A DNA stretch of 64,000 nt from Candidatus Chryseopegocella kryptomonas (GTDB lineage Bacteria; Bacteroidota; Ignavibacteria; Kryptoniales; Kryptoniaceae), in NCBI RefSeq assembly GCF_001536065.1, contig NZ_CZVW01000001.1, positions 1-64,000 on the forward strand, read 5' to 3'. Below, piece after piece: positions 22,648 through 45,325 of the stretch. A program made the position numbers and the translations under genes. The notes under the pieces were generated by a model that was not told where the DNA came from, did not search any database, and worked only from the letters and a program-made list of their open reading frames with translations. Each line of letters opens with the position of its first letter. The first letter of the stretch is position 1.

Positions 22648-23068
22648 GAAGATCAAAATTAAAAGCGAGTTGAAAAATCTTAAACTCGTCAGAGATTTCA
22701 TAAGGAAAGAAGCGATCAAGTTCGGATTTGATGAAATTGATGTTGAAAAAATCATTCTCTCCGTTGATGAAGTTTGCACGAATTCAATTAAACATTCCTA
22801 CGAGAATAAGCCAGATGGCATAATATATGTTGAAGTTAAAAAATCTGGAAATAGATTTTCCGTTGTCGTCTCATACGATGGTTTGCCGTTTGAACCAGAG
22901 AAATTGAAAATTGAATCACCGCTTGATAAGTTCAAAAGGACAGGCAAGGTCAAGCGTGGGAAACTTGGGATGTTTATAATTCATAGGTTTATGGACAGGG
23001 TAAAGTATCAGAGAAAGAGGAATAAAAATGTTGTGATCTTAACAAAATTTTTGAGAAAAGATGAATGA
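22625..23068 (+). CDS. RsbW-like serine kinase / anti-sigma regulatory factor (HATPase)
   Basis: This 147-residue GHKL ATPase has the N-box I-L-S-V-D-E-V-C-T-N-S-I-K-H-S-Y and a shortened G-box around G-K-L-G-M-F-I-I-H-R-F-M-D. Such kinases phosphorylate STAS antagonists and bind a sigma factor or other target. The start at ATG 22625 is chosen because GAGGAG lies upstream. It overlaps the STAS gene on one side and the second phosphatase gene on the other (23061), so all three are made together. No sigma factor gene is in the window. Confidence 0.9.
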   Translation: MSAREKNKKIKIKSELKNLKLVRDFIRKEAIKFGFDEIDVEKIILSVDEVCTNSIKHSYENKPDGIIYVEVKKSGNRFSVVVSYDGLPFEPEKLKIESPLDKFKRTGKVKRGKLGMFIIHRFMDRVKYQRKRNKNVVILTKFLRKDE

Positions 23069-24695
23069 GTCGGAGGCAATTTTCACGCTTGAATCAATTT
23101 TTAATTTTGGCAAAGCGTTGGCAAGTTCGCAAAGTCAATATGATGTTCTCAAAATTTCTCTTCTTTCGCTTCTTGGAAAGTTGAAAATTTCAAAAGGTGT
23201 CGCTTTAATTTTTGAAGATGGAAGTTTTAAAGTTGTTTACGCTGTCGGTCTTAAATTTAATTACGGATTTAAAATCAGTTCGGGGAAAATTCCAGAAGGG
23301 ATAACTAAATTGAGTAGGAAATTTTTAAAAAATTTTGGCTTCAAATTTTCAAGTTTTATAAGTAGAAACAAACTTTGTTATCTTGTTCCGATAAGATGGG
23401 GTTCGTCGGGGGATTTTGTTCTTGCGTTGATTCTTCTTGGATGCAGAGACAAAAAATTTACACATAGAGAGATTGAATATATAAACTTTATCGCAAATTT
23501 CACCGCTCTTTCGCTTAAGAATATCGCCTCAATTCTTGATTTAAAGAGGAACATTTATGATTTGAAGATGATAAACGAATTTACACAAAGCGTGCTTTTG
23601 AAGAAAGACGATGAAGAAATTTTTGAATCTCTTGCCCTGACTCTTATGGGACATTTTAAGGTTGAGGGAATTTCTGTCGTTGAGTTTGACGGAGCAAAGC
23701 AAAAAATTTTTTCTTTTCCAAAGTCATTTGAGGTCAAGAAAAGTTTTTTGAGAAAAATTTTGCATCTGGATGAAAATTTAATTCTTGAGCCAGCGAAATT
23801 CGGTTTTAAAAATTTGTCTCTCGTTCTTTTTCATAAAAATGTAAGCGATGGGCGGGTTTTTGTTTTGATTCTGGGGAAAAGAAAAGAGAATTTGCCTTTT
23901 GAAATTTCAGATGTTGAATTAATTCGCACAATTTTTATTGCTACGATAAATGCAATTGAGAATTTGAAAATGTTAAGTTTGAACTACGATATGAAACTTG
24001 CTTATGAAATACAAAAGAATTTACTTCCGAAGAAATTGCCAGATGATGATAGGATTGAAATTTCCGCCTTGTCAATTCCGTCAAAAGTTGTGAGCGGTGA
24101 TTATTATGATGTGATTCAATTGAGCGAAGATGAAATTATAGTTGCAATTGCGGATGTTTGTGGTAAAGGGGTTTCGGCTTCGCTTTTGATGTCAAATCTT
24201 CAAGCGTCGTTGAAAAGTTTTTTGCTTTTTTCAAGTGATATTAAATCCGTCGTTCAATCGCTTAACAAAATTATTCAGATTAACACTTCGCCAGAACAAT
24301 TCATCACATTTTTTATATGCAAGATTGATTTAAGAAATTTCGTTCTTGAATATGTTAACGCTGGACATAATCCGCCGATTTTGTTTAAAAAGAGTAGGTA
24401 TGAGTTTCTTGAAAAGGGTGGTGCAGTGCTTGGGGTTTTGGATGATGAATATGAGGTTGGTAAAGTTAAAATTGAAAATGGCGATTTAATTTTTCTTTAC
24501 ACTGATGGAGTGATTGAGGCGATGAATTCAAATGGAGAGGAAATCGGGCTTGAGAGAGTAATTTCGTTTTTGAATTCAAATGTCAATTTGCCCGCTGGTA
24601 AAATTGTTAACTCAATTAAGGATTTGATTTCTTCATTTTCATACGGAGTTGAACAGGTTGATGATATAACATTGCTTGTTTTAAAGATAAAGTAA
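23061..24695 (+). CDS. second SpoIIE-type phosphatase with GAF-like domains
   Basis: This 544-residue protein has no membrane segment. The first ~300 residues look like two GAF-like sensor domains (a region with L-C-Y-L-V-P-I-R-W-G-S and helix T-A-L-S-L-K-N-I-A, then a second copy before residue 300). The phosphatase domain begins after L-A-Y-E-I-Q-K-N-L-L-P and contains V-V-S-G-D-Y-Y-D-V, I-A-D-V-C-G-K-G-V-S-A-S, Y-T-D-G-V-I-E-A and V-D-D-I-T-L-L-V. It is a cytoplasmic counterpart to the membrane phosphatase four genes earlier, giving the switch two inputs. Confidence 0.92.
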   Translation: MNESEAIFTLESIFNFGKALASSQSQYDVLKISLLSLLGKLKISKGVALIFEDGSFKVVYAVGLKFNYGFKISSGKIPEGITKLSRKFLKNFGFKFSSFISRNKLCYLVPIRWGSSGDFVLALILLGCRDKKFTHREIEYINFIANFTALSLKNIASILDLKRNIYDLKMINEFTQSVLLKKDDEEIFESLALTLMGHFKVEGISVVEFDGAKQKIFSFPKSFEVKKSFLRKILHLDENLILEPAKFGFKNLSLVLFHKNVSDGRVFVLILGKRKENLPFEISDVELIRTIFIATINAIENLKMLSLNYDMKLAYEIQKNLLPKKLPDDDRIEISALSIPSKVVSGDYYDVIQLSEDEIIVAIADVCGKGVSASLLMSNLQASLKSFLLFSSDIKSVVQSLNKIIQINTSPEQFITFFICKIDLRNFVLEYVNAGHNPPILFKKSRYEFLEKGGAVLGVLDDEYEVGKVKIENGDLIFLYTDGVIEAMNSNGEEIGLERVISFLNSNVNLPAGKIVNSIKDLISSFSYGVEQVDDITLLVLKIK

Positions 24696-28283: not shown

Positions 28284-31079
28284 ATGAGGATTGCGAAGGC
28301 ATTTTTTATCTCAATTTTGGCAACAGCACTTTCTTTCTCTCAGGGAGTGAGAGAATTTTCAATCATTATCAACCCGGACAGTTTGCTTTTGTTGTATTCA
28401 CGCAATATATGGGATAAAACATATGTTCCGATGAGGTTTGTCCCGGAGGATGGTTCAGGACACGCTGGGGGAATAAGATTCAAGGGGCACTCATCAAGAT
28501 ATTATCCGAAGAAACCTTTCACTGTTAAGTTCAACAAGGGGCAAGAATTTGAAGGATGGCGTGAGATGGGGTTTAACGCAATGTATACGGATAAATCTTT
28601 AATGCGGGAGGAACTCGCGTGGCAAATTTCAAGAAAGCTTGGAATAATTGGACCTGAGACATATTATGCAAATCTTTACATCAATGGGAAAAATTACGGA
28701 CTTTATCTTTTTGTAGAAAGAATTGATGAAACCTTCAAGCGAACTCCGGAAAAATATGGATTTATGAAGGGTGGTTCAATGTATGAGCCGGTTGATGATT
28801 ATCATATGGGTGATCTTTTTATCCCGCTGGATTCAAATGATTACTTCAAATTTTATGACAAGAAATTTCCAGCAGATAGCAACTACTCCGATTTAATTCA
28901 ACTCATAAAAGAAATAAACGAAACTCCTGCGGAAGATTTCCACAATTTCATTGAGCGAAAATTTATAGGTGAAACAGTTTTAAACTGGTTCCTGCTTAAC
29001 ACATTAACTCATATGGGAGATACATACAACAAAAATTACTATCTTTATCACGACTCTGTTTCGGATAAATGGCTGATTATACCCTGGGACTATGATCTTT
29101 CTTTTGGGAGAGATGGAACAGGTGTCTTGCCTTATCCTTTGAACCTTTTGAACGATAAATTTAAATACTGGTATATGTTACCCTATCACGGCGTTGATAA
29201 TCCTTTGAAGATCAAGTTCTTTCAAAATTCAATCCTTGTTTCCAGATTCAAGCAAAAACTTGATTCTGTGCTAACTTACATTTTTACAGAAGATAAGATG
29301 CTCGCTTTGATTGATTCGTTGAAAAATTTGATAAGAAATTATGTTTATCGCGATGAATTTAAATGGGGAACGAACAAGGAATTTGATGAACAGGTTGAGG
29401 CATTGAAATACTATGTTACTGCGAGAATATTTTTCCTTTACAAGTGGCTTTCAAACTATTGGCCAGGTGAAGAAAATAAAGCGACATTGAGAATAACCCG
29501 GCTTGACACGGTTTATCACTTTGTTGATAAAAACGGTCGCTTGCTTGGAAGCATTTGGTTTTATGAGGCAAATGGACTTGATAGTTTAACCGTTATAGTT
29601 TATCCAGATAGCATTCCTCCGTATTTGCCTGATGATGTTTTGCCAGATAAATATGTCAGAAGAGTTTTTAAAATTATCCCGTATCCATCAAGTGCGAAAT
29701 TTAGAGCGAGGATAAGATTGGAATATAGAGATGAATCATTGACAAGAACTGAGCTTGGAGTGGGCATTTTGGATGAACATTTTTTGAAATTACATTATTT
29801 TGATGGTCAATCATGGAAACCGCTTGAGACAAATGTTAATTCATATGCAAATACTTTAACTGTTGATAATGTAAGCGATGAAGTTTTGAATGAAAACACA
29901 ACTTTGTCCGCATTTATCCCAGTTGATTACAAATTGCGGTGGAATAAGATAGAGACCTTATCTTGGGATAAACTTTTGAAAATAAAATTTGCGAATAAAG
30001 ACACTGGTTATGTCGTTGGGGAGACAAGCTCAATTTTCATCACAAAAGATGGCGGGAGGACATGGCTTTATAGGACAAAAGCCTTGGGGAAGGAATTAAA
30101 ATTAAACGATATTGCGTTTGCGGATTCGCTTGTTTATATCGTTGGTGAGCAAGGACTCGTTTATAAAGGTAAAATTGGCGATACGCTCTGGACACAAATT
30201 GAACTTGGAACGAGGGATAATTTCAAGCAAATTGGTTTTTATAATGGAAGATATGGATTTATAAGAGGCGAAAGTGAATTTTATTACACAAGCGATGCTG
30301 GAAATACTTGGCAGAAATTGTCTTTTTATGTAAATGGTGAAACGGAAATAAAAAGCGAAGATGCTTTCGCAAGTGTAAAGAAAAATTCAATAATTCTATG
30401 GAGAGCTGGCTCTAATGATTCTGTTTCAGTTTTTGTGAGCTATGTTGATACATCGTTGAGAAAAATAAAATTGTATAAAGATGGAGTTTTCTATGTTGTG
30501 GCAAGCGATGATTCAATTTATGTTGTCAAAGATACTATCGTGATTTCAAGACCTCTCAAAGCAAGGGTCAACGATATAAAGATAATTGACTCATTGAAAA
30601 TTTTCGTCGCCTGTGATGATGGAGTTGTTTTATACACGAAAGATAGTGGAAATTCCTGGCATCTTCAACCGATTGGAGTTACAAACGATATTTATTCAGT
30701 TGAATTTATTGATTCGCTGAAAGGTTTTGCAGTTGGAAATTTTGGCTTGCTTTTAAGCACGGAGCAAGGGGGATATACGAAAGTTATCTTTGCTCAAAAC
30801 CAACCAGAAGTTCCCGCTGTATTTAAACTCCATCAAAACTATCCTAATCCGTTTAACAGTTCAACGAAGATTTATTATGAAGTTCCGTATCCTTCGGAGG
30901 TGAAAATTGAGGTTTATGATATACTTGGCAGAAAAGTTGCGACACTTGTTGATGGGTATAAAAATTCAGGGGTTCACTTTGTTGATTTCAGTGCGGTTAA
31001 CCTTGCAAGCGGAATTTATTTCTATGTTATGAAGGCGAAGAACATCATTATCTCAAAGAAAATGGTTCTTTTAAAATAA
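28284..31079 (+). CDS. secreted CotH-kinase-family protein with YCF48-like repeats and type IX tail
   Basis: This 931-residue protein starts at ATG 28284, where the signal peptide begins (M-R-I-A-K-A-F-F-I-S). Residues about 25-400 form a CotH-type domain: G-G-I-R-F-K-G-H-S-S-R-Y-Y-P-K-K-P, and the active-site stretch P-W-D-Y-D-L-S-F-G-R-D (near 266-275), matching the metal-binding Asp pair of the CotH protein kinases. Residues about 560-830 contain photosynthesis-stability (YCF48)-like propeller blades (T-K-D-G-G-R-T-W). The tail is a type IX signal (H-Q-N-Y-P-N-P-F-N, I-L-G-R-K-V-A-T-L, S-G-I-Y-F-Y). First gene of a nine-gene operon; its phosphorylation target is unknown. Confidence 0.88.
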   Translation: MRIAKAFFISILATALSFSQGVREFSIIINPDSLLLLYSRNIWDKTYVPMRFVPEDGSGHAGGIRFKGHSSRYYPKKPFTVKFNKGQEFEGWREMGFNAMYTDKSLMREELAWQISRKLGIIGPETYYANLYINGKNYGLYLFVERIDETFKRTPEKYGFMKGGSMYEPVDDYHMGDLFIPLDSNDYFKFYDKKFPADSNYSDLIQLIKEINETPAEDFHNFIERKFIGETVLNWFLLNTLTHMGDTYNKNYYLYHDSVSDKWLIIPWDYDLSFGRDGTGVLPYPLNLLNDKFKYWYMLPYHGVDNPLKIKFFQNSILVSRFKQKLDSVLTYIFTEDKMLALIDSLKNLIRNYVYRDEFKWGTNKEFDEQVEALKYYVTARIFFLYKWLSNYWPGEENKATLRITRLDTVYHFVDKNGRLLGSIWFYEANGLDSLTVIVYPDSIPPYLPDDVLPDKYVRRVFKIIPYPSSAKFRARIRLEYRDESLTRTELGVGILDEHFLKLHYFDGQSWKPLETNVNSYANTLTVDNVSDEVLNENTTLSAFIPVDYKLRWNKIETLSWDKLLKIKFANKDTGYVVGETSSIFITKDGGRTWLYRTKALGKELKLNDIAFADSLVYIVGEQGLVYKGKIGDTLWTQIELGTRDNFKQIGFYNGRYGFIRGESEFYYTSDAGNTWQKLSFYVNGETEIKSEDAFASVKKNSIILWRAGSNDSVSVFVSYVDTSLRKIKLYKDGVFYVVASDDSIYVVKDTIVISRPLKARVNDIKIIDSLKIFVACDDGVVLYTKDSGNSWHLQPIGVTNDIYSVEFIDSLKGFAVGNFGLLLSTEQGGYTKVIFAQNQPEVPAVFKLHQNYPNPFNSSTKIYYEVPYPSEVKIEVYDILGRKVATLVDGYKNSGVHFVDFSAVNLASGIYFYVMKAKNIIISKKMVLLK

Positions 31080-31092
31080 AAAGTTCTGAAAA

Positions 31093-33114
31093 ATGAAAAT
31101 CCAATTTCTCTTTTTGATCGTTATTTTGAATACTACAATTCAAACCTTTCTCTTTGCTGAAAAATTGACATTCCAAAAGTTTGGCTACGATGATATTGTT
31201 TTAACTGGACCGACGCCTGCGGTTACATTGTTTTTGAGAGTTGGTGAAAATGTTGATTCATCAAAAAGTTATATCGTTCTTGACATTGAGCCGTCACCTG
31301 TTTTGAATTTTAAAAATTCCTACATTACAGTTTTGATATGGGATAAGCCAGCGTTGACGGTCAGATTGAGCGATCTGGGGGATAAATTGATAGTTCCGCT
31401 TCGTCAGTTTGATTTGAGTTTTTCTGATTTTATCAAGCTTGACATCAAGGCGAACCTTTCCATAACGATGGACAGATGCTATGACATTATAACAAACGGG
31501 TTGTGGGTTAAGATCAGAAAATCATCTTTTGTTAATGTGGAGTTTAAGCAAAGAATAGGTGTAAAGTTAAAGATCAGCAATTTTTTAAAGTTTCTTGAAG
31601 GTGGAGGTGCAATAGTTATACCATCAAATTTATCCACGATTGAATGTGAAGGTGCGGTCTGGGTTTATTCTTATCTGAGAAAATTGACAGGAAAAGATTT
31701 TGAGGTAGAAACATATGAGACGCTTCCAGATGAGGTGGAAAATTTTGTCATCGTGTCAAGATTTGACAAGATACCTGAAAAATATAAAAAGTCAATAAGC
31801 GGAAAATTCTTGAATAACGATGGATTGATTTATGTTTATTCAGAGCAAACTGCAAAATTTCGGAAGAATGTTCTTGTTCTTACAGGTTTCAATGATGAAG
31901 GATTGAGAAAGGTAATCAAAGCGTTTTTAAATAAAGACATTTTTCAATCTTCGTTTAACAGTTTTCTACTTGTTCGTCAAGCGGTGCAAGAATTGGAAGT
32001 AAAACCTCCGCTTCCACCTTACAAGATAAGTTTTCGTAAGCTCGGCTTCACGAGTGGACGACTTGAGGGGATAGGGAATTTAAGATATGTTTACTCATTC
32101 AAAAATTCTGAACTTGGATTTTCACCGGACAAATTGACGATAAACATAACCGCAGTTTATGCCCCCGTGGTAAGTGCGGTTCGCAATGCGTTTTTCAATG
32201 TTTACTTTAATAACACTTTGATTGAAAGCAAAAGATTAACAGAGGAAGGAAAAATCTCTTACAGCTTTGATGTTGATAGATTTGTTTTGTTGAAAACGAA
32301 CACGATAACGGTTGAATTTGTTTATTATCCGACAAGTGAGGAATGTAAAAATTTGATGGCGAACTTTTTCTGTATGCTTGATGATGAAAGGTCGTATATC
32401 AATGTGTCAAGTTTTTATCGTCCAGATGAATTAAGTTTTGTTTATTTCCCCGAGATGTTTGGTTATGGTGAAACGGTTGCGGTCATCGGTGGCAAGATTA
32501 CGCTTCAAAAGGTAAGATCGCTTGCAAAAATTGTTTATCTTGTAAATTCGGGAATTAAAGAGTTTGAATTCTATCCGTCTGTTTATTTCTCTTCATCCGT
32601 TGATTATGAAATTTTGAAAAACTATAATTTAATTTTGATCCTTGATCCAAATGAGCAATTGATGGAGAAATTTGAAAATTCTCCATTGAAGCCAAGACAG
32701 GGATTTAGAATTTTGAGTTCAGCAACGGGGCGTGTTTTATACACACTCTGGGATACAACATCAATTGGTGTGAGTGAGGTATTTTACGGTGAAAAAGGCA
32801 ATCCTGTGCTTCTTGTTTTTGGAATGGGAAGGTATGCCGATGAAAGAATTTATCAAATGACGAAATCACTTGAAGCGAAATTTCCTGACATCAGCGGGAA
32901 CATAGGAATAGTTGATGGTGAGAAAAGTTACTTTTTCAGAGTTGAAGCGGGACTTTTGAAAGTTCAATATCCAGGGGAGAGAACATTTCTTGACATTTTC
33001 AACCAATACAAAATTTTTATAATCGGGCTTGCGTGGGCGTTGTTTTTAGCATTGCTTGTTTATGTCTTCTGGCGTGGAAGGAAAATGGCAAGAAAAGTTA
33101 TGGAAAGAAAATGA
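31093..33114 (+). CDS. BcsB-like periplasmic subunit of a polysaccharide synthase
   Basis: This 673-residue protein resembles the cellulose synthase B subunit: signal peptide (about 1-22), F-x-x-x-G-Y-D-D-I-V-L-T-G-P, paired carbohydrate-binding and flavodoxin-like modules (N-L-S-T-I-E-C-E-G-A at 178 onward; a second set after 300), and one C-terminal transmembrane anchor (I-I-G-L-A-W-A-L-F-L-A-L-L-V-Y-V-F-W) with a basic tail. BcsB guides the growing glucan through the periplasm and activates BcsA. The GT2 protein three genes downstream is the likely partner. The stop shares ATGA with the next gene. Confidence 0.78.
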   Translation: MKIQFLFLIVILNTTIQTFLFAEKLTFQKFGYDDIVLTGPTPAVTLFLRVGENVDSSKSYIVLDIEPSPVLNFKNSYITVLIWDKPALTVRLSDLGDKLIVPLRQFDLSFSDFIKLDIKANLSITMDRCYDIITNGLWVKIRKSSFVNVEFKQRIGVKLKISNFLKFLEGGGAIVIPSNLSTIECEGAVWVYSYLRKLTGKDFEVETYETLPDEVENFVIVSRFDKIPEKYKKSISGKFLNNDGLIYVYSEQTAKFRKNVLVLTGFNDEGLRKVIKAFLNKDIFQSSFNSFLLVRQAVQELEVKPPLPPYKISFRKLGFTSGRLEGIGNLRYVYSFKNSELGFSPDKLTINITAVYAPVVSAVRNAFFNVYFNNTLIESKRLTEEGKISYSFDVDRFVLLKTNTITVEFVYYPTSEECKNLMANFFCMLDDERSYINVSSFYRPDELSFVYFPEMFGYGETVAVIGGKITLQKVRSLAKIVYLVNSGIKEFEFYPSVYFSSSVDYEILKNYNLILILDPNEQLMEKFENSPLKPRQGFRILSSATGRVLYTLWDTTSIGVSEVFYGEKGNPVLLVFGMGRYADERIYQMTKSLEAKFPDISGNIGIVDGEKSYFFRVEAGLLKVQYPGERTFLDIFNQYKIFIIGLAWALFLALLVYVFWRGRKMARKVMERK

Positions 33115-34210
33115 AGAAAATTCTCCTTTCCTGCTCTTGCTTTTTTATTCCTGTTCACCTGTGATATACAGAGTTAATCATTCAAGGTTAAGAGAATTAG
33201 AAACAAAGGCAATTGATGAGATCAAACGAAGGTTGAGTTTGGGACTTCCATCAAGACCAAATGGATTTTGCTATGCGATTGACCTTGCTGAAATTATGCA
33301 AACAGGTGTTGAAATCGGCGATTCGTCTATGTTTAGCAGTGCTTATGAGATTTTGAAAAAACATTACATAATTCGTGATTCGTGGATTGATAGCTCAATT
33401 TTGTGGAGATACAAACCCGAAGTTGAGCCAGATGCTTCTGGAACTGCGGAGACAATTCATTGTGCGCATGCAATTTTTCTTGCGTATAAAAAGTGGAAAA
33501 AGGAAGAATATAAAAGAGTAAGCTATTCTCTCGCAAGGGCTTATTTAAAACACGGCTATATGATTGACTCAAATCGGTTCATTGTAAAAAATTATTTCAA
33601 CTATCAAACGAGAACTCTTTCAGAAAACACTTATCTTATCAACCAGCGTCCTGATTACTTATACGAAATTGGGCTTGAAAACAACGATTCAGAGATGTTA
33701 AATAAAGCGAAGTTAATGTATAATGCGATCATCGGTGGCTATGTTGGGAATGGATTTTTTTACTCAATATATGATGTTGGAGTTTTAACCGTAGATCCTG
33801 GTTCATCAGGTTATTTTTCTCCGAATTCTGTTTTTCCGTTGATTTCTTCAGTTGATATAGCAACTTCAATCAAAGGTTTTAATGATAAGCCAGCTTGGGA
33901 GATTTTGAAATTTTTTGAAAATAATTTTGGAAGATGGAGCGATTTTTATGTTTATAATAATGGCAAATTTATTGAACAAGAGAAAACAAATTCAGTTAAT
34001 CTGGCTGTGCTTTCAGCAATGATTGATCTTTATTTTGCCTTGGGTAAGCCAAAGGCATATAGAAATTTAATAGTTTATCTTTCGCAGATTCTTGCCGATA
34101 AAGTAAATGTATTCTTGACAAGTTTATCGCCTGAAAATCTTGATTCTTATTATTTTGAGTTGGCAAGAGCGATAAGAACAATGCGCAGGATAAACGAGAA
34201 TGGGATTTAA
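33111..34210 (+). CDS. lipoprotein with six-hairpin glycosidase-like fold; frameshift in its leader
   Basis: Most of this ~367-residue protein lies in the frame that stays open from 33056, and contains helical hairpins and E-P-D-A-S-G-T-A-E-T-I-H-C-A-H-A, reminiscent of (alpha/alpha)6 glycosidases. The natural start, ATG 33111 in the ATGA overlap with the BcsB-like gene, is in another frame: M-K-K-I-L-L and then a stop at 33162. A -1 shift near C-T-T-T-C-C (33126-33131) would join them into MKKILLFLLLLFYSC-SP, a perfect lipoprotein leader. So one base is probably missing, by sequence error or real mutation. Position suggests a BcsZ-like trimming enzyme; the family is not proven. Confidence 0.6.
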
Positions 34211-35018
34211 AATTTTGAAATATCCCGTATTTTTATGTTTTGTCGTTTCTTCTGTTTTTGCAGGTGCGTGGACACGGGGGAAAGGAAGCATTCTTCTTGT
34301 GCCATACTGTTATTTTTATCAGGCAAGCGGATATTACGACACGAATTGGAAATTCAATCTTCTTCAAAACAGCGGATATTTTGATGGACTTGGTTTTGGA
34401 TTATACTTTGAATATGGTTTCAGCGATAGATTTAATTTGGTTGGAAATTTTTCTTTTGTGAGAAACAGATGGATTGACAATTATAACTACAAATCAAACA
34501 GCGATTTTGGGGATTTTGAGATTGGATTGAAATTAAAAATTTTTGAGTCAAGGTTTGTGTTAAGTTTTCAAACTCTTGCGATTATACCTGCTTATTCAAT
34601 GGATAGAGAACCATTGATTGGGTATGGAGAATATGCTGGTGAAGTTAAAATTCTTTTCGCTGGCGGATTGAGACCGTTTTCTCTTAATTCTTATTTTAAC
34701 ATTGAACTTGGATACAGAAGATTTTATTCAAAGGTTGCGCCACAGGTTAGATTTCAAATTTTATATGGAATTAATCTCGGTTGGAAATGGCAAGCGATTT
34801 TTCAAATTGACGGCGTCAATTCAATTGGTGAAGGAACATTTTCAACAAGATTTAATCCGTCAATTGAGACGGACTATAACGAAGGGAAATTAAGCGTTTC
34901 GCTTGCGCATAGATTCACATATAAAGCGTGGTTTCAGGGTGGCGTTTTCTATGATGTTTATGGCAGAAAAATTGGCGCTGGAAGAGGTTTCTTCATAGCA
35001 TTGTGGATTGAGATTTAA
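34200..35018 (+). CDS. outer-membrane beta-barrel protein
   Basis: This 272-residue protein starts with a signal peptide (about 1-22, ending V-F-A-G-A-W) and is made of alternating aromatic/hydrophobic strands throughout (G-L-G-F-G-L-Y-F-E-Y-G-F-S-D-R-F-N-L-V-G-N). It ends in a strand closing with W-I-E-I. I cannot name the family; it resembles transporter-like barrels of about 12 strands. Its start overlaps the preceding gene by 11 bases, and the GT2 synthase follows 14 bases later, so an outer-membrane pore for the polymer, as in other synthase-dependent systems, is a fair inference. Confidence 0.7.
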   Translation: MGFKILKYPVFLCFVVSSVFAGAWTRGKGSILLVPYCYFYQASGYYDTNWKFNLLQNSGYFDGLGFGLYFEYGFSDRFNLVGNFSFVRNRWIDNYNYKSNSDFGDFEIGLKLKIFESRFVLSFQTLAIIPAYSMDREPLIGYGEYAGEVKILFAGGLRPFSLNSYFNIELGYRRFYSKVAPQVRFQILYGINLGWKWQAIFQIDGVNSIGEGTFSTRFNPSIETDYNEGKLSVSLAHRFTYKAWFQGGVFYDVYGRKIGAGRGFFIALWIEI

Positions 35019-35032
35019 ATTTCAATTTCGCT

Positions 35033-36895
35033 ATGATTGAAGAAGTCAAGAAATACTCTGTCAAGGATATTTTGATTGATTCTGGAATTATTGATGAGAG
35101 CGCAATCAATGAGATTGAAAAATTTCAAAGTGAAACTGGTTGGTCTTTTGCGAAAGTTTGTCTGACATTTGGTTATGTGAGCAGAAAAAAATGGCGTGAG
35201 ATTGTTGAATCGCTTGGATATGAGATGGTTGATGTTAAGAAGGAAAAAATTGACCCGAAGATTGTCTCTTATATGAATCTTTTAATTATGGAGCAATATC
35301 TTGGAGCGCCGATAAGAAAAGAGAACGGCAAAGTTATACTTGCTATGGTTGACCCGACGGATGCTGAATTTGTTGAGATTGTGAAGAGAGTTTTTAAAAG
35401 CGATGTTGAGATAATTTTTTCAATGGATGTTGATGTAATCTGGGTTTTACATAAATATCTCGGACCTCCTTTTTGCAGGATTGCGATTTATAATTTGCTC
35501 TGGAAAGATCCCGATAGGTCGGCGGTTTTAACTTTGACGACGAAACAAGTTATTATCATCGTTGGTTTGTTGACCCTTTATCTTATTTATTTTTCAATTA
35601 ACCCAATTGGTGGGGTTGTGCTTTTAAACATTTTGATTAGTTTTTTATTTCTTTTTTCAATCCTTTTTAAGTTCACGCTTTCTCTTGTTGGAGCAAGATA
35701 TGAACTTTATGAAGTCATAACGCAGGAAGAGATAAATGCACTCCGAGATGATGAACTTCCAGTTTACACGATACTTCTTCCTGTTTATAAAGAGCCCAAG
35801 GTCATAGCAAAACTTGTTGAAAGCATAAATCGTATGGATTATCCAAAGTTAAAACTTGATGTGAAGCTTTTACTTGAAGAAGATGATTTGGAGACGATAG
35901 ATGCGGTGAGAAGACTTGATTTCCCTGCGGTTTTTGAACCACTTGTTGTGCCATCTGAACAGCCAAAGACGAAACCAAAGGCGTGTGATTATGGATTACT
36001 TTTCTCTCGTGGTAAATATCTGACAATTTATGATGCCGAAGATATTCCAGACGCAGATCAACTTAAAAAAGCAGTTGTGGCTTTCAAAAAACTTCCAGAT
36101 GAATATATCTGCGTTCAATGTGCCTTGAACTATTACAATAGAGAAGAAAATCTTTTGACCCGTATGTTCACGCTTGAGTATTCTTATTGGTTTGATTATA
36201 TGTTGCCTGGGCTTGATAGGTTGAAAATGCCAATTCCTCTCGGTGGGACGAGCAATCATTTCAAGAAAGATATTCTTGAAGAACTTGCTGGCTGGGATCC
36301 ATTCAATGTCACAGAAGACGCAGACCTTGGGATAAGAGCTTATGCGAAAGGTTACAAAGTTGCTGTTTTAAATTCAACAACTTATGAAGAAGCTAACAAA
36401 GCAATTAAAAACTGGATAAGGCAACGCTCAAGATGGATCAAAGGTTATATGCAGACATACCTTGTTCATATGCGACATCCCATTGAATTGATCAAAAAAT
36501 TGGTTTTTAAAGGTTTCCTTGGTTTTCAACTTTTTGTCGGCGGGACTCCGTTCGTTTTTCTTGCTAATCCTATCCTTTGGTTTGTTTTCACAACATGGCT
36601 AATTACCAAAGCTGAAATTATAAAGCTCTTTTTCCCCGATTGGGTTATGTATGTTTCAACTTTTAATCTTTTGTTTGGAAATGCGATCGTAATTTATATG
36701 AATATGATGTCAGTTTTCAGGCGAAAGTATTACAATCTCTTACCTTACGCATTGCTGAATCCATTTTATTGGATTTTGCATTCAATTGCAGCTTATAAGG
36801 CACTGTGGCAGTTGATTCAAAATCCATTTTACTGGGAGAAAACAGAGCACGGATTAAGTGAGATATTTAAGAAAGAAAAAATCCAAAAGAGATGA
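35033..36895 (+). CDS. polysaccharide synthase: GT2 with an N-terminal MshEN-like domain
   Basis: This 620-residue protein has two parts. Residues about 5-150 resemble the GspE/MshE N-terminal (MshEN) fold: V-K-D-I-L-I-D-S-G-I-I-D, then G-W-S-F-A-K-V-C-L-T-F-G-Y-V-S, followed by a small domain (V-I-L-A-M-V-D-P-T-D). Two helices (about 165-220) lead to the GT2 domain: P-V-Y-T-I-L-L-P-V-Y-K-E, Y-D-A-E-D-I-P-D, T-E-D-A-D-L-G and Q-R-S-R-W. More membrane helices follow. The layout recalls E. coli NfrB, a c-di-GMP-controlled glycosyltransferase with MshEN, but in the other order. The R-L-G residues of the nucleotide motif are not conserved, so c-di-GMP binding is doubtful. Confidence 0.85.
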   Translation: MIEEVKKYSVKDILIDSGIIDESAINEIEKFQSETGWSFAKVCLTFGYVSRKKWREIVESLGYEMVDVKKEKIDPKIVSYMNLLIMEQYLGAPIRKENGKVILAMVDPTDAEFVEIVKRVFKSDVEIIFSMDVDVIWVLHKYLGPPFCRIAIYNLLWKDPDRSAVLTLTTKQVIIIVGLLTLYLIYFSINPIGGVVLLNILISFLFLFSILFKFTLSLVGARYELYEVITQEEINALRDDELPVYTILLPVYKEPKVIAKLVESINRMDYPKLKLDVKLLLEEDDLETIDAVRRLDFPAVFEPLVVPSEQPKTKPKACDYGLLFSRGKYLTIYDAEDIPDADQLKKAVVAFKKLPDEYICVQCALNYYNREENLLTRMFTLEYSYWFDYMLPGLDRLKMPIPLGGTSNHFKKDILEELAGWDPFNVTEDADLGIRAYAKGYKVAVLNSTTYEEANKAIKNWIRQRSRWIKGYMQTYLVHMRHPIELIKKLVFKGFLGFQLFVGGTPFVFLANPILWFVFTTWLITKAEIIKLFFPDWVMYVSTFNLLFGNAIVIYMNMMSVFRRKYYNLLPYALLNPFYWILHSIAAYKALWQLIQNPFYWEKTEHGLSEIFKKEKIQKR

Positions 36896-38475
36896 GAAAT
36901 GCCGTTTTATCCATAGCATTAGCGTCGTTGGTTTTTCTTTATTACTTAACACTTGGAATGACTTTTCAAAATAATGGCTATCTTCATCCTGAGGGAATTT
37001 TTTTGATTGAGAAAGCACTGCTTGCGTTGAAGGGTAATCCACCACGACTTGAGAACATAGGTTTAATTTATCCGCCATTGCCGTTTTTCTTTACTTTTCC
37101 TTTTATAATTTCCGTCAATCCAATAATTGCTCCGGTGTTTGCATCTGCGTTTGGAATGGCGGTGCTTTGTGCGGTTTTAATGTACAGAGTTTTAAAACGA
37201 AATTTATCCTTTGTTTTCGTTTTCTATCTTTTAATGATTTTGACAATAAATCCGCTTGTTTTATACTCTGCGACATCTGGTGGAAGTTCTTATCTTTATG
37301 TTTTGTTTATCACGATATTTTTTGCTTTCATTTTTGAGTATTATGAGCGAAATGTGAGTTTTTATCTTGCGGTTGCCGGAATATCGCTCGGGATTTTGGC
37401 ATTGATAAGATATGAGATTGTGTTTATTCTTGTCTTTTGGACTTTGGCAAATTTTATACTTGCTGTGGAAACAACACTTGAACCGGGAGTAAGTTATAAG
37501 AATTTTTACAGGTTGTTAAGAGAACTTCCTGCTTATAGACAAACTTTTTTCCGAAAGGTCATGGCGGTTTATCTTATGATTTTTATACCACCAATCGTTT
37601 CCGCTGTGAGCTGGATGTATCTGAACTGGATTTTCACATCAAATCCATTTCATTTTTTGAGCAGTCCTTATTCATATTTCAGAACTTTGAGAACCTTTGT
37701 TCTTTATAATCCGATTTTGCTTGAGGTAAGGGACAATTTTTTTAAAAGTTTGATTTATATCTTGATGGAAGTTTTCATCTCCGCTCCAACATTTTTGATC
37801 ATATTTTTGTTGTTTGGTCATAGGTTGTTTTTTATACTTGCGTTAACTTCTCCAGTGATTTCCCTTTTTATAAGTTCATTTCTGGGGATTTCGCTTTTAA
37901 ATGTTGATTTCTTTGTTCCGTTTGTTTTTCTTTCTTTCCTTGTTCTCGTTTATGCGTGTGAGCAAAAGAAAACATTGCGTAAAGCAATTATTCTACCGCT
38001 CTTTGGAATTGTCCTGATGATTTCTTCATTCACTGGTTATTATAAGCTCAAAAATTCAAATTATCCTGAGGAAAAAATTTTTGCAAGGGTTTTGCTTGGT
38101 GGCAATGCAGATGGAATTTTTGAAGATGAGAAAAAGGTTGCTGAATTTTTAAAAATGTATGCCGATTCAAACGATGTGATTTTGTTTGATGATGCGGATG
38201 GATATCCGATTGTGGTTTTTTATGGTTATCCTAAAAATATAGTTTTGCCTTATCAATATGAGTTTTCGTCCGTTGTTGAAAGACCTGAGGTTTATGCTGA
38301 TTTTATCGTTGTTTATAATCCAGATACATATGAAGGTGGGCGTGATGCGTTGAATTTAAGACACAAAGATTTATTTTATCGTGGGGCTGATGGGCTTGAT
38401 TTCGTTGCAAGTTTCGGAAACTTGAGAATTTTTCGCTCAAGTTACAGAGCAAAGAGTAAAATTGCTGGGAGGTGA
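36892..38475 (+). CDS. polytopic membrane protein, GT-C glycosyltransferase-like
   Basis: This 527-residue protein has about ten hydrophobic helices and a C-terminal soluble part of about 130 residues. The first periplasmic loop reads N-G-Y-L-H-P-E-G-I-F-L-I-E-K and P-P-R-L-E-N-I-G-L-I-Y-P-P-L-P, like the acidic first loop of GT-C enzymes (PMT/ArnT type) that use lipid-linked sugars. The C-terminal D-V-I-L-F-D-D-A-D-G-Y-P and V-L-P-Y-Q-Y-E-F also recall that group. It overlaps both neighbours (ATGA at 36892), so it is an integral part of the polysaccharide operon. The substrate is unknown. Confidence 0.7.
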   Translation: MRNAVLSIALASLVFLYYLTLGMTFQNNGYLHPEGIFLIEKALLALKGNPPRLENIGLIYPPLPFFFTFPFIISVNPIIAPVFASAFGMAVLCAVLMYRVLKRNLSFVFVFYLLMILTINPLVLYSATSGGSSYLYVLFITIFFAFIFEYYERNVSFYLAVAGISLGILALIRYEIVFILVFWTLANFILAVETTLEPGVSYKNFYRLLRELPAYRQTFFRKVMAVYLMIFIPPIVSAVSWMYLNWIFTSNPFHFLSSPYSYFRTLRTFVLYNPILLEVRDNFFKSLIYILMEVFISAPTFLIIFLLFGHRLFFILALTSPVISLFISSFLGISLLNVDFFVPFVFLSFLVLVYACEQKKTLRKAIILPLFGIVLMISSFTGYYKLKNSNYPEEKIFARVLLGGNADGIFEDEKKVAEFLKMYADSNDVILFDDADGYPIVVFYGYPKNIVLPYQYEFSSVVERPEVYADFIVVYNPDTYEGGRDALNLRHKDLFYRGADGLDFVASFGNLRIFRSSYRAKSKIAGR

Positions 38476-38486
38476 AACATAAAGAT

Positions 38487-39542
38487 ATGAAATTTCTTCG
38501 GTTAATCGTCGCTTTGTTTTCATTGTTAATTTTGATTCTTTTTTTGAATAATGCCTGGATTTGGGATGATATAAATTCGCTTGGAGAAGTTTTGCCAGCA
38601 AAAGAGTTTCATTTGATTCGTTCGCAGGATGATAGAATAGTGACGATTTTAAAAAATAATTTGAGCGGAACTGTTGAAAGATATTCAATTATAAGCGTGG
38701 AAAGAGGCGATGCTATAAGAATGAGTTTAAATAATTCTTTTAAAGTTGGCGGATTTGTAAATTCTGGCGATACGATTTGTAAGTTAATTTCTGCTGAGAC
38801 GATGTATCAGATCGTTAGATTGGAGGGTCTTATTTCAACTGAAATTGCAACTTTAAATTTTTACAAAACTGGTGAAAAAACCGCAATTATAGAAGAGGCA
38901 AGAGGTAGATTGGAGTCAGCCCAACAACAGCTTGAATATCAGGGAAAAGTCCTTGAAAGGATGAAAATTCTTTATGAAAAAAATCTTATCTCTCCACAAG
39001 AATATGAGACGGCAGAGAATTTATTTAAGCTTTATCAGGCAAATGTTTCAATTGCGAAATCTCAACTTGAAGCACTTGAAACGGGGGCAAAACCAGAGCA
39101 AATTCAATTAATTGAAACAAGAATTGAATCTTTGAAAAATGAACTTGAAGCGCTCAAACAAAAAGCACAATCTTACATCATAACATCTCCAATTTCTGGC
39201 GTAATTTTCAAAATTTCTTCTGGCGATACTATATTATCTATGGCGGATATTTCGGCGTTTTGTTGTTTAATTCCAATAAATGTTGATGAAAGGGCAAAAG
39301 TTAAAAATGGTCAAATTGTAGAAATAAAATCATCTGAAATTTTACAAGCGAAGATTGATGCGGTTGAAAATTCGGTTAGAGTAATAAATTTAAAGCAAAT
39401 GGTTTTGGCAAGGGCGATAATTGAAAACAAAACTGAAAATTTAGTTCCACATCTCGTGGTTAAATGCAGAATTAAAGTTGGCAGGGTTAAACTTCTTGAT
39501 TATGTTTATTTTTTTGTCAAACAAATTTTTACCTCGGGATGA
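38487..39542 (+). CDS. HlyD-like membrane-fusion (adaptor) protein
   Basis: This protein of about 351 residues has one N-terminal transmembrane segment, a lipoyl-type half (G-G-F-V-N-S-G-D-T-I), a long coiled coil (about 80-215, E-E-A-R-G-R-L-E-S-A-Q-Q-Q-L-E), the second lipoyl half (I-T-S-P-I-S-G-V-I-F-K-I-S-S-G-D-T) and a beta domain. ATG 38487 is preferred; GGGAGG ends at 38472 and a GTG there (GTGA overlap) is the alternative. Such adaptors bridge inner and outer membranes in export or synthase systems. No ABC or RND pump is adjacent, so it probably serves the polysaccharide machine. Its stop shares ATGA with the VTC gene. Confidence 0.75.
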   Translation: MKFLRLIVALFSLLILILFLNNAWIWDDINSLGEVLPAKEFHLIRSQDDRIVTILKNNLSGTVERYSIISVERGDAIRMSLNNSFKVGGFVNSGDTICKLISAETMYQIVRLEGLISTEIATLNFYKTGEKTAIIEEARGRLESAQQQLEYQGKVLERMKILYEKNLISPQEYETAENLFKLYQANVSIAKSQLEALETGAKPEQIQLIETRIESLKNELEALKQKAQSYIITSPISGVIFKISSGDTILSMADISAFCCLIPINVDERAKVKNGQIVEIKSSEILQAKIDAVENSVRVINLKQMVLARAIIENKTENLVPHLVVKCRIKVGRVKLLDYVYFFVKQIFTSG

Positions 39543-40285
39543 TAAGGTTTGAGTATAAATATCTTGCTCCAGTTGAGTTGATTGAACGATTGCGATTGGA
39601 AATAATGCCGTATGTAAATTATGATGAGTATGCGAATGCAAGTAAAATCGGTGAATATACAGTCCGAAGCATATATTTTGACAATGATAGATTTCAGTAT
39701 TACAACGATAAAGTTGATGGTCTTGAGATAAGGAAAAAAGTTAGAGTTCGTGGTTATGGGGCTAAGGATGAAAGTAGCATTGTTTTCCTTGAAGTCAAGA
39801 GGAAAAAAGGTGTGTATATTTTGAAAAGCAGAGCTCCTTTGACATTTGAGAATTTGGAAAAGATATTTGTCTGCAAAGATTTTGAGAGATATATTTTAAA
39901 CAAGCCGATAGAGAACGCTGTGAAAAGTGCGAAAAATTTTTTCTATTATGTTAATGTGGATAACCTTAAGCCAGTCATTCTTGTCGTTTATGAGCGTGAA
40001 GCGTATCAAGGTAAATTTGATAATTCGTTGAGAATTACATTTGATAAAAATTTAAGAGCTTCTCTTTCATCTCGTTTGACTGATTTATTTGACGAGTTGA
40101 ATATGCGATATGTGATGAAGTCATATTTTACTGTTGAATTTAAAGGGAAGACAAAAATTCCACACTGGTTCAGGAATATAGTCGCAAAGTATGAGCTTAA
40201 ATTTATGGCTTTGTCAAAGTATGTTTTATCTGTTGATGCTTTTGATTTTTCTGAGTTAAAACAAATCACAAGATTGGGATTATGA
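39539..40285 (+). CDS. VTC-domain polyphosphate polymerase-like protein
   Basis: This 248-residue protein has the tunnel-fold VTC domain that makes polyphosphate from ATP in yeast Vtc4. The conserved basic and acidic tunnel residues are seen in R-F-E-Y-K-Y-L, Y-T-V-R-S-I-Y-F-D-N, L-E-I-R-K-K-V-R-V-R-G-Y, V-F-L-E-V-K-R-K-K-G and Y-E-R-E-A-Y. Unlike eukaryotic VTC there is no SPX domain or membrane part. Bacterial VTC proteins commonly neighbour CotH kinases and DUF4956 proteins (my recollection), and both are here. Whether it makes polyphosphate or moves phosphate groups in this system is unknown. Confidence 0.87.
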   Translation: MIRFEYKYLAPVELIERLRLEIMPYVNYDEYANASKIGEYTVRSIYFDNDRFQYYNDKVDGLEIRKKVRVRGYGAKDESSIVFLEVKRKKGVYILKSRAPLTFENLEKIFVCKDFERYILNKPIENAVKSAKNFFYYVNVDNLKPVILVVYEREAYQGKFDNSLRITFDKNLRASLSSRLTDLFDELNMRYVMKSYFTVEFKGKTKIPHWFRNIVAKYELKFMALSKYVLSVDAFDFSELKQITRLGL

Positions 40286-40953
40286 TTGAGGATTTGCAGA
40301 ATATATTTACGATTTCAATTTCGCCTGTGGAAGTGATAAGGAATTTGTTTGTTGCTTTTGTGTGTGGGTTTATAGTTTCGGTATTTTATAAAATTAGTTA
40401 CAGGGGGATAAGTTATTCAAGCACGCTTGTTAATTCGTTGATAGCTCTTTCAATGATAACATCAGTTGTAATAATGGTTATAGGCAATAATCTTGCAAGG
40501 GCTTTTGGGCTTGTTGGGGCGATGTCAATAATAAGATTTAGAACAGCGATAAAAGACACGCAGGATATAGTTTTCATATTTTTTGCTCTTGCTGTGGGAA
40601 TGGCAAGCGGTGTGGGTTTGTATGCGGTTTCTATAGTTGGGACGCTGACAGTTGGGCTGGTTATGTATGCCCTTTCAAGGTTAAATTACGGAATGCCAAG
40701 GAGAAAAGAATTACTTTTGCAATTTACTTATGAAGCAATAGACGAAAAAGAACCCGAATATACTTCTGTTATAAAAAGCGAATGTAAAGATTTTAAGCTG
40801 ATAAATGTTAAAAGCCCAAGGGGCGATCTTTTTGAACTATCTTATTACATTAGGCTTAAAGATAAAAGCAAAGCAGGGGAACTTGTCAGGAAACTTTCAA
40901 AATTGCCAGGTGTTAAGAATGTTTCTCTGCTTGCTGATGAAGAGGGGTTTTAA
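40282..40953 (+). CDS. DUF4956 membrane protein
   Basis: This 223-residue protein has four hydrophobic segments (about 20-40, 50-70, 75-95 with G-L-V-G-A-M-S-I-I-R-F-R-T-A, and 95-130) and a cytoplasmic alpha/beta C-terminal domain of about 80 residues. The motif R-F-R-T-A-I-K-D-T-Q-D and the overall plan identify DUF4956, which resembles the MgtC fold. Function is unknown; the family repeatedly stands next to VTC and CotH genes. It overlaps the VTC gene stop (ATGA at 40282) and ends the nine-gene operon, 72 bases before the RodZ-like gene. Confidence 0.87.
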   Translation: MIEDLQNIFTISISPVEVIRNLFVAFVCGFIVSVFYKISYRGISYSSTLVNSLIALSMITSVVIMVIGNNLARAFGLVGAMSIIRFRTAIKDTQDIVFIFFALAVGMASGVGLYAVSIVGTLTVGLVMYALSRLNYGMPRRKELLLQFTYEAIDEKEPEYTSVIKSECKDFKLINVKSPRGDLFELSYYIRLKDKSKAGELVRKLSKLPGVKNVSLLADEEGF

Positions 40954-44980: not shown

Positions 44981-45325
44981 ATGAATTTTGAAATTTCCAA
45001 GCCAGAGAAAAATACCATAATTTTCAAGTTGCGTGAGAAGAAGATGGATGCTTTAATTTCACCGGATTTAAAAGCAGAATTTCTCGCACTTTGTCAGAAA
45101 GGTGTTAAGAAAATAATTATTGACCTTTCTGATGTTGAGTATTGTGATAGTTCGGGGTTGAGTTCGCTTTTGTTCTGCGAGAGAAGAATGAGAGAAAATA
45201 AAGGCGAAGTTTATCTTGTCGGGGTTAGGGATAAAGTTTTAAACTTGATAAAAATAGCACGGCTTGACCAGTTGTTTAAGTTTTCAAATTCTGTTGAAGA
45301 AGCGCTTGGAACAAAAACAAAGTGA
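44981..45325 (+). CDS. STAS-domain anti-sigma factor antagonist
   Basis: This 114-residue STAS protein contains I-I-D-L-S-D-V-E-Y-C-D-S-S-G-L-S-S-L-L, whose Ser (D-S-S-G) is the expected phosphorylation site. It is separate from the partner-switching operon at 20212-24695 and has no kinase beside it, so it may be a second antagonist used by the same HATPase, or act with a kinase elsewhere. The symporter gene follows ten bases later; its own sequence shows no link to transport. Confidence 0.9.
   Translation: MNFEISKPEKNTIIFKLREKKMDALISPDLKAEFLALCQKGVKKIIIDLSDVEYCDSSGLSSLLFCERRMRENKGEVYLVGVRDKVLNLIKIARLDQLFKFSNSVEEALGTKTK

Follow-up and report, generated by a model that had tools for sequence, protein, structure and literature searches.

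A nine-gene operon joining an exopolysaccharide core to a CotH/HlyD/VTC/DUF4956 phosphate module in Candidatus Chryseopegocella kryptomonas

A nine-gene operon of Candidatus Chryseopegocella kryptomonas lies in a 64,000-nucleotide stretch of contig NZ_CZVW01000001.1 (positions 1 to 64,000), hereafter the window. Nine open reading frames (ORFs) on the + strand occupy positions 28284-40953; by the ORF list of the window, neighbours either overlap slightly or are no more than 14 bases apart. In order, they encode a CotH-kinase-like protein, a BcsB-like protein, a lipoprotein, a possible outer-membrane beta-barrel, a GT2 polysaccharide synthase, a GT-C-fold glycosyltransferase, a HlyD-type adaptor, a VTC-domain protein, and a DUF4956 protein. 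The second to the sixth are assigned here to an exopolysaccharide core (module A), and the first together with the seventh to the ninth to a phosphate module (module B). Each of the four successive junctions between the GT2 and DUF4956 genes is a 4-base overlap, and one of them, GT-C/HlyD, is where the two modules meet. An earlier note, written by a model from the DNA letters, had described tight coupling of nine genes on one strand, which is borne out by the ORF coordinates, and a synthase-dependent exopolysaccharide machine in one gene row with a CotH/VTC/DUF4956 set, which is indeed what is found. The same nine genes are present in the same order in a congeneric genome, G003, with 46-77% identity (the fetched stretch cuts the start of CotH, but the kinase domain is present). 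Therefore, the nine-gene operon is confirmed as real and not a product of chance.

Pfam matches of the window proteins to CotH, BcsB, GT2, MshEN, VTC, and DUF4956 all exceed the curated cut-offs. In module A, the BcsB-like periplasmic, membrane-anchored protein (31093..33114, + strand, 673 amino acids) matches the BcsB family at 1.8e-17, with 63.4 bits against a cut-off of 21, and no PDB match was obtained for it by sequence search. In a structure comparison set beforehand as a check of this label, its AlphaFold2 model, built with 27 relatives (mean predicted local distance difference test score, pLDDT, 87.1; predicted template modelling score, pTM, 0.73), matched E. coli BcsB (9fmt) with E=2.5e-33 and a template modelling score (TM) of 0.56 over 683 alignment columns. 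It also matched the Rhodobacter-type BcsB of 4hg6 (2e-19, TM 0.31). The polysaccharide synthase (35033..36895, + strand) consists of an N-terminal MshEN/PilB-N-like domain (Pfam MshEN, 2.5e-8) and a processive GT2 domain (2.1e-24) with TED and QRSRW motifs in the alignment; it matches BcsA (9.9e-12) as well as PilF/PilB N domains. By eye, the Leu-Gly pairs conserved in MshEN motifs appear to be absent from its MshEN domain at the two presumed motif positions, and this inspection gives no support to control by cyclic di-guanosine monophosphate through the domain. One GGDEF gene was found in each of four congeners, and none in the window genome, which is 78% complete.

The sixth protein (36892..38475, + strand, 527 amino acids) has no Pfam family. 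Its model, built with 29 relatives (pLDDT 89.8, pTM 0.89), has a best PDB match at E=1.7e-5 and TM of about 0.50, with ArnT at 0.02 and TM 0.53, and its 25 best PDB matches are what we take to be GT-C enzymes (OST/STT3, DPY19, PglB, ArnT, Pmt, and AftA). It is thus predicted to be a GT-C-type membrane glycosyltransferase, a label less firm than most. The lipoprotein, a possible hydrolase (about 33098..34210, + strand; the start codon may be TTG at about 33098 or ATG at 33062), gave no confident match in Pfam, NCBIfam, or family-profile searches. The earlier note had called it a six-hairpin glycosidase, but the one weak match to GH8, from a single-sequence search (E=0.0048), disappeared when a family profile was used, and this label was given up. 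Relatives of the lipoprotein are present in the congeners G002, G003, G004, and G006, with a short N-terminus in G002. The secreted 272-residue protein (34200..35018, + strand) has no family match in Pfam or NCBIfam, and its barrel character was judged by eye; a barrel-like gene is conserved near GT2 in the genus and in two further families of the class, f12 and f7. Overall, seven of the nine labels first given to these genes are supported by family search or model, those of HlyD and GT-C less firmly, and the labels of the lipoprotein and the outer-membrane barrel were not established.

In module B, the secreted CotH-kinase-like protein (28284..31079, + strand, 931 amino acids) carries a CotH domain (Pfam 4.3e-63), Ycf48-like repeats (PSII_BNR, 2.9e-22), and a type IX secretion C-terminal tail (Por_Secre_tail, 7.1e-9). 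It resembles the CotH structure 5jd9 (1e-29), and a PWDYD stretch is common to both. The HlyD-type periplasmic adaptor (38472..39542, + strand, 356 amino acids) matches Pfam at 3.1e-4 and NCBIfam HlyD at 2.4e-12, both under the curated cut-offs. The DUF4956 inner-membrane protein (40282..40953, + strand, 223 amino acids; Pfam 2.1e-15) has an MgtC-like region (0.0019) and an ACT-like C-terminal region (ACT_4, 0.015), both weak matches, and its R85 and R87 are invariant in 101 of 101 aligned sequences. The VTC-domain, triphosphate-tunnel, polyphosphate polymerase-like protein (39539..40285, + strand) is a lone domain of 248 amino acids, for which VTC (1e-42) is the sole family above its cut-off. 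Its residues K7, R69, R71, E85, K87, K96, R153, R165, E200, K202, and K227 each occur in 98 or more of the 100 sequences aligned. The VTC family profile matches Vtc4 at 2e-19, with the first eight of these residues in register before the alignment ends after R165; the basic ones among them correspond to K200, R264, R266, K281, K294, R361, and R373 of Vtc4, which we take to be catalytic. Chain 7ytj_D has alanine at the two RxR arginines when aligned to the VTC profile. As far as the alignment extends, the window protein keeps the triphosphate-tunnel catalytic residues of the Vtc4 type.

To delimit module A, the best 80 of at least 583 synthase relatives from a scan of named genomes were surveyed, with a neighbourhood of at most 10 kb and often less where contigs end. 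BcsB is present in 73 of these 80 loci, GT-C in 76, and the barrel gene in 18; CotH-profile matches occur in two, HlyD in one, and the lipoprotein in one, and VTC and DUF4956 in none. Many of the loci belong to Mucilaginibacter and Chitinophagaceae, and others to named genera of Flavobacteriaceae and two alphaproteobacterial genera, as well as metagenome-assembled genomes (MAGs) labelled as Aquificota, Anaerolineales, Thermomicrobiaceae, Synergistaceae, Desulfobacterales, Sporomusaceae, a cyanobacterium, and Thiobacillus. Within the class, six genomes of f12 (52-55% identity) and three of f7 (42-54%) have synthase orthologues, in loci that gave no HlyD, VTC, or DUF4956 match; L044 and L049, among these f12 and f7 loci, match the broad CotH profile. 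In L047 and L048 of family f7, the N-terminus of the GT2 orthologue is unlike the window MshEN N-terminus in the alignment. The genome of L132 bears both modules, on separate contigs. Overall, the BcsB / barrel-like / MshEN-GT2 / GT-C set is widely distributed and looks like an exopolysaccharide core of the same kind as the xag and twisted-stalk clusters.

VTC and DUF4956, counted under the same sampling settings, are present in 48 and 74 of 296 genomes of the phylum, respectively, and all 48 genomes with VTC also have DUF4956. Neighbourhoods were read at 61 intact VTC loci of Bacteroidota, excluding the window, with profiles trained on part of the loci and with some contigs ending nearby. DUF4956 adjoins VTC in 61/61. 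HlyD is found near the pair in 41 loci and a DUF2490 barrel in 14, never both together, so that one or the other is near 55 of the 61. All nine barrel candidates tested were confirmed by Pfam as DUF2490. CotH kinase is near VTC in 25 loci, in each case within 4.5 kb and on the same strand, and GT2 and BcsB profile matches within 10 kb on the same strand were found at one, which is that of G003. Since HlyD is near VTC-DUF4956 in 41/61 loci and near the core in 1/80, it goes with the phosphate genes, and the split into six polysaccharide and three phosphate genes drawn in the earlier note had to be abandoned. HlyD-VTC-DUF4956, often with CotH, is a module separate from the exopolysaccharide core. 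The two modules are separable because the core occurs without VTC and DUF4956 in 80/80 loci, in f12 and f7, and in the congener G004, and VTC-DUF4956 occurs without a BcsB or GT2 profile match in the range given above in 60/61. Some DUF2490 barrels near VTC-DUF4956 apparently replace HlyD (L079, L080, L082, L083, L086, L089, L091, L093, and L096). In Bacteroides thetaiotaomicron, a table in PMC10434189 gives BT3498-99 as DUF4956 and DUF2490 genes. At L034 (10296-12998) and L068 (10456-13083), a protein of about 875-900 amino acids lies between VTC and DUF4956; that of L034 (900 amino acids) has a CotH match (7.8e-9) and weak beta-helix matches. A VTC-DUF4956 fusion was considered as proof of contact and rejected, since the long VTC ORF of L051 overlaps the HlyD match and looks like a chance extension.

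The second survey covered the phylum to which the Sporomusaceae MAG belongs, Bacillota judging by its name; VTC was found there in 36/249 genomes, and 40 loci out of 43 places were read. DUF4956 is present in 39/40, the 40th locus starting at a contig end, CotH kinase in 24/40, and GT2-profile matches in 3/40. HlyD-profile matches occur in 4/40, several kb from VTC and never adjoining the CotH/VTC/DUF4956 trio. PelF and PelG are present together in 1/40, and neither was found in the 61 Bacteroidota VTC loci. The trio lies beside unrelated synthases, namely Pel (L209), a chitin-synthase-like GT2 with HEAT repeats (L199), a GT2 with an MBOAT/DHHW protein (L221), and a GT2 with a leucine-rich-repeat protein (L231). 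At L194, L196, L197, L200, L201, and L203-L205, an opposite-strand pair beside VTC-DUF4956 resembles, as judged by N-terminus, an OmpR-type regulator (225-231 amino acids) and a histidine kinase (400-472 amino acids).

CotH and VTC are also associated at the level of genomes. Because the broad CotH profile spans the type IX tail and the repeats, it was replaced by PF08757 for these counts and by a kinase-only profile for the locus counts given above. CotH was found in 45/45 genomes with VTC versus 15/45 without it, the latter being a convenience sample, mostly of the same class, that includes G002 and G006 with their VTC fragments. Among 150 CotH places listed, 28 are within 15 kb of VTC, compared with 1.2 expected at random. 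The polyphosphate kinase PPK1 is present in 40 of the 45 genomes with VTC; the five without it include the window genome (G000, 78% complete) and G003 (98%), and PPK2 was found in 0/6 congeners. Since neither kinase is detectable in G000 and G003, VTC may account for most polyphosphate synthesis in those congeners that retain it.

Within the genus, the two modules have fared differently, although the congener genomes are drafts and some gene lesions may be assembly faults. G002 retains CotH, BcsB, barrel, GT2, GT-C, and DUF4956, with HlyD and VTC as fragments and the lipoprotein without its first part. In G006 the operon is rearranged, with a 63-residue VTC fragment abutting a CotH truncated by 106 residues at its start, and the operon survey gave no DUF4956 match. 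G004 retains BcsB, lipoprotein, barrel, GT2, and GT-C, with CotH as remnants and no HlyD, VTC, or DUF4956 match in the operon survey. G005 has GT2 and GT-C on a 3.2-kb contig, too short to judge the operon, and G001 lacks VTC, CotH, and a close GT2 (best match 7.8e-22). Thus bcsB, gt2, and gtc are damaged in none of the five congeners with a readable operon, and the barrel gene is also open in G002, G004, and G006. The gene-order check suggested in the earlier note was therefore answered in part: the order is complete in G003, and among 149 class genomes and 80 named loci no full joined copy was found beyond those of G003 and the window genome.

DUF4956 also occurs away from VTC, and 14 such loci were read. 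A HlyD-type neighbour is present at seven, L178-L183 (all of family f35) and L185, and L178-L183 also share a homologous TolC candidate. The Pfam matches of L178 are modest, with HlyD_D23 and the first lipoyl family just under the cut-off, Biotin_lipoyl above it, and OEP under it (0.0019), and the TolC candidates of L181 and L185 have no Pfam match. L184 has a clear OEP (1.1e-34) beside DUF4956. L178-L185 perhaps represent a DUF4956-based envelope exporter. At L191 (8515-11301), the second DUF4956 locus of G231 and distant from its VTC, DUF4956 stands with genes for a porin O/P-type protein (2.5e-7) and CotH; at L061, a VTC locus, CotH, DUF4956, HlyD, OEP (4.3e-17), and VTC lie in one row. DUF4956 is thus often, but not in every case, beside envelope-spanning parts, and VTC is its commonest enzyme partner in the sample. 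The DUF4956 proteins of L186-L188 are short, with 185-186 amino acids.

The reading preferred in this study, held tentatively and at a little less than even confidence, is that the operon consists of two joined machines, in which module B makes and exports polyphosphate, with CotH acting outside the cell, as an accessory to module A. In module A, homology and models suggest that a sugar chain would be polymerised at the inner membrane and passed to the periplasm with a BcsB-type guide, and the GT-C enzyme would probably add a side sugar from a lipid carrier. In module B, VTC, given the conserved residues observed, would polymerise phosphate from adenosine triphosphate (ATP) at the cytosolic face; DUF4956 would move the product across the inner membrane, and HlyD would pass it onward to the surface. 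Synthesis and translocation would be coupled as in the yeast VTC complex, with the parts on separate genes. CotH, presumably exported by the type IX secretion system, would be a phosphotransferase outside the cell. In this genus, module B may have been recruited to the same row, as it was elsewhere to Pel and other GT2 synthases, so that a phosphate polymer, or a product phosphorylated by CotH, is deposited along with the exopolysaccharide; it would be an accessory of module A and not part of the synthase. Both polyphosphate export and glycan phosphorylation are thus proposed roles, and the HlyD or DUF2490 barrel near 55/61 loci points to export. A wider form of this proposal appears improbable at present: VTC-DUF4956 with HlyD or a DUF2490 barrel would be a general bacterial machine for secreting polyphosphate and the counterpart, in separate parts, of yeast VTC, and the exported polyphosphate would serve CotH as phosphate donor in the extracellular space, which lacks ATP; beside a synthase, such a relay would phosphorylate the emerging glycan or matrix proteins.

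Several observations weigh against export by an accessory module. DUF4956, being MgtC- and ACT-like, could be a regulator; 26 of the 74 genomes with DUF4956 have no VTC, and L186-L190 have neither VTC, HlyD, nor TolC match near DUF4956. Since it occurs without VTC, and in these loci without an envelope partner, DUF4956 can serve other cargo or none, or have another role. Neither HlyD nor DUF2490 is near six of the 61 Bacteroidota VTC loci, and the Pfam matches of the nine window proteins include no TolC and no pump of the ABC, RND, or MFS class. By the 150 listed places, CotH is within 15 kb of VTC in at least 24 of 45 genomes only, and of the five congeners whose operon is readable, the window included, three have a broken VTC gene or none. 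The link of module B to polysaccharide is occasional, because most module B loci have no synthase match by the tests made. All these counts come from genomes related by descent and hence are not independent. In S. intermedius, no change in Pel or aggregation is reported after deletion of the polymerase gene SIR_1593, and according to the heading of that section the four accessory genes are all dispensable for making Pel (PMC12345266). No assay of any of the operon proteins was found in the literature consulted.

An alternative account, unlikely but not negligible, is that CotH is an ordinary secreted protein kinase, VTC-DUF4956-HlyD serve envelope phosphate or metal homeostasis, and their proximity is a regulatory convenience without a shared product. 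It agrees with the description of CotH as a spore-coat protein kinase (PMC7112168), with the weak MgtC and ACT likeness of DUF4956 (Pfam; also PMC12345266), and with the rarity of synthases near VTC (GT2 and BcsB in 1/61 Bacteroidota loci, GT2 in 3/40 and PelF/PelG in 1/40 Bacillota loci, PelF/PelG in no Bacteroidota locus; the searches covered these kinds of synthase and no others). Against it, the trio is repeatedly joined to unrelated synthases (Pel, GT2 with MBOAT/DHHW, GT2 with HEAT, and MshEN-GT2/BcsB), the HlyD or barrel partners point to export, and deletions in S. intermedius change the amount of Pel (PMC12345266). SIR_1592 has an MgtC-like membrane part and an ACT region and is taken as the DUF4956 gene; its loss raised the amount of Pel and reduced aggregation, and loss of the CotH gene SIR_1594 gave less of both (PMC12345266). 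These phenotypes fit an accessory role in tuning or decorating the matrix, with phosphate on the glycan as a further supposition. Beyond these deletions, no experimental function of the bacterial VTC-DUF4956 pair was found in the open-licence literature.

One integrated nine-part machine making a phosphorylated or polyphosphate-linked polysaccharide, as the earlier note proposed, would explain why the genes overlap by four bases where the modules meet and why G003 has the same gene order. It is improbable, however, given that HlyD belongs to module B, that the core lacks VTC and DUF4956 in all 80 named loci and in G004, and that G002, G004, and G006 have a damaged VTC gene or none while bcsB, gt2, gtc, and the barrel gene remain open, so that tight interdependence of the nine parts is unlikely. 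It is more improbable still that VTC, as a triphosphate-tunnel enzyme, makes a different product, such as a short phosphate chain or a modified nucleotide, which the ACT-like region of DUF4956 senses to switch export on. The lone 248-residue domain and the weak ACT-like match in the DUF4956 C-terminus would suit such a signal, but the basic tunnel residues alignable with Vtc4 are kept. The operon is a local union of two widespread sets, an exopolysaccharide core and a phosphate module to which HlyD belongs. Of greater weight than the joining itself are the boundaries now drawn around module B and the hypothesis of export; the pairing of VTC-DUF4956 with a polysaccharide machine is rare, yet it helps to define module B. 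In cells with two membranes, VTC and DUF4956 as a rule have HlyD or a barrel nearby, and in the Bacillota-type phylum they mostly have neither. This neighbourhood rule makes an orphan VTC-DUF4956 pair a testable exporter, and it may explain the presence of the pair beside biofilm polymers.

The upstream neighbour of the operon is on the opposite strand, 375 bases away, and the downstream neighbour begins 72 bases after the operon. Since the upstream gene is divergent, the 375 bases are left for a promoter. In a scan, 64 promoter-like sites were found where 44 were expected, and 11 terminator-like sites where 8 were expected; none of the latter lies on the + strand between 38208 and the operon end, although such a scan is uninformative in AT-rich DNA. 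A SpoIIE-type phosphatase (1.8e-44) is encoded upstream at 23061-24695 and a STAS-domain protein (1.9e-17) downstream at 44981-45325, and partner-switching control of the operon region by these two is possible.

The nearest relatives of module A are the bcsB-xagB-xagC-xagD genes of stalk-forming iron oxidisers (Kato 2015, PMC4643136) and the twisted-stalk sfz1-6 cluster, which has BcsB, an EpsE-type-N/GT2 protein, and an Sfz6 with a CotH domain (PMC8250860). By their published descriptions, and not by their sequences, these share with the window a BcsB-like gene, then a GT2 with an N-terminal EpsE-type domain, TED, and QxxRW, and then a protein of about 500 amino acids. The size of the GT-C gene agrees with sfz3, to which PMC8250860 assigns no function; the window gene at the position of sfz3 has a GT-C-like model. 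The product of sfz4 is described as a GH10 hydrolase (PMC8250860), which the window lipoprotein does not match. VTC, DUF4956, and HlyD are not mentioned in the available descriptions of xag and sfz, and neither HlyD nor polyphosphate occurs in that of PMC8250860. E. coli NfrB also combines GT2 and an MshEN-like domain in one protein, but the latter is C-terminal there and N-terminal in the window synthase, and an Achromobacter cluster adds a BcsB homologue (PMC8669472). Unlike Bcs cellulose synthase, the nine window proteins include no PilZ or TPR family in Pfam, and unlike tripartite HlyD/TolC exporters, the operon has a HlyD-type protein without TolC or a known pump class. Window VTC, as far as aligned, has the same basic triphosphate-tunnel residues as the yeast VTC complex. 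The yeast VTC protein carries SPX and channel parts; the window protein is a lone domain without SPX or a transmembrane channel of its own, unlike the eukaryotic complex, and DUF4956 is its proposed partner in the membrane.

The earlier note knew of no described system with this set, but precedents exist beside pel (PMC7112168, PMC12345266), in NELoc-2 (PMC2879425), and at sfz (PMC8250860). In C. perfringens NELoc-2, VTC, a membrane protein of 222-226 amino acids, CotH, a 685-residue protein, and GT2 lie in a row; the membrane protein is of DUF4956 size, although labelled tubulin/FtsZ, and the locus differs from the window in its GT2, called a chitin synthase, and its HEAT-repeat protein (PMC2879425). 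L199, which is NELoc-2-like, has no BcsB-, HlyD-, or GT-C-profile match. CotH, a polyphosphate polymerase, and DUF4956, with DUF4832, adjoin Gram-positive pel operons (PMC7112168, PMC12345266). There the same trio accompanies a synthase-dependent exopolysaccharide system, but the synthase, Pel, is unrelated, and no Pel family (pelDEADAFG contiguity) was found by Pfam among the nine window proteins. PMC12345266 states that the trio in this arrangement was not found outside the Pel locus; contrary to this, CotH is near VTC-DUF4956 in 25/61 Bacteroidota and 24/40 Bacillota loci, with PelF/PelG in a single one.

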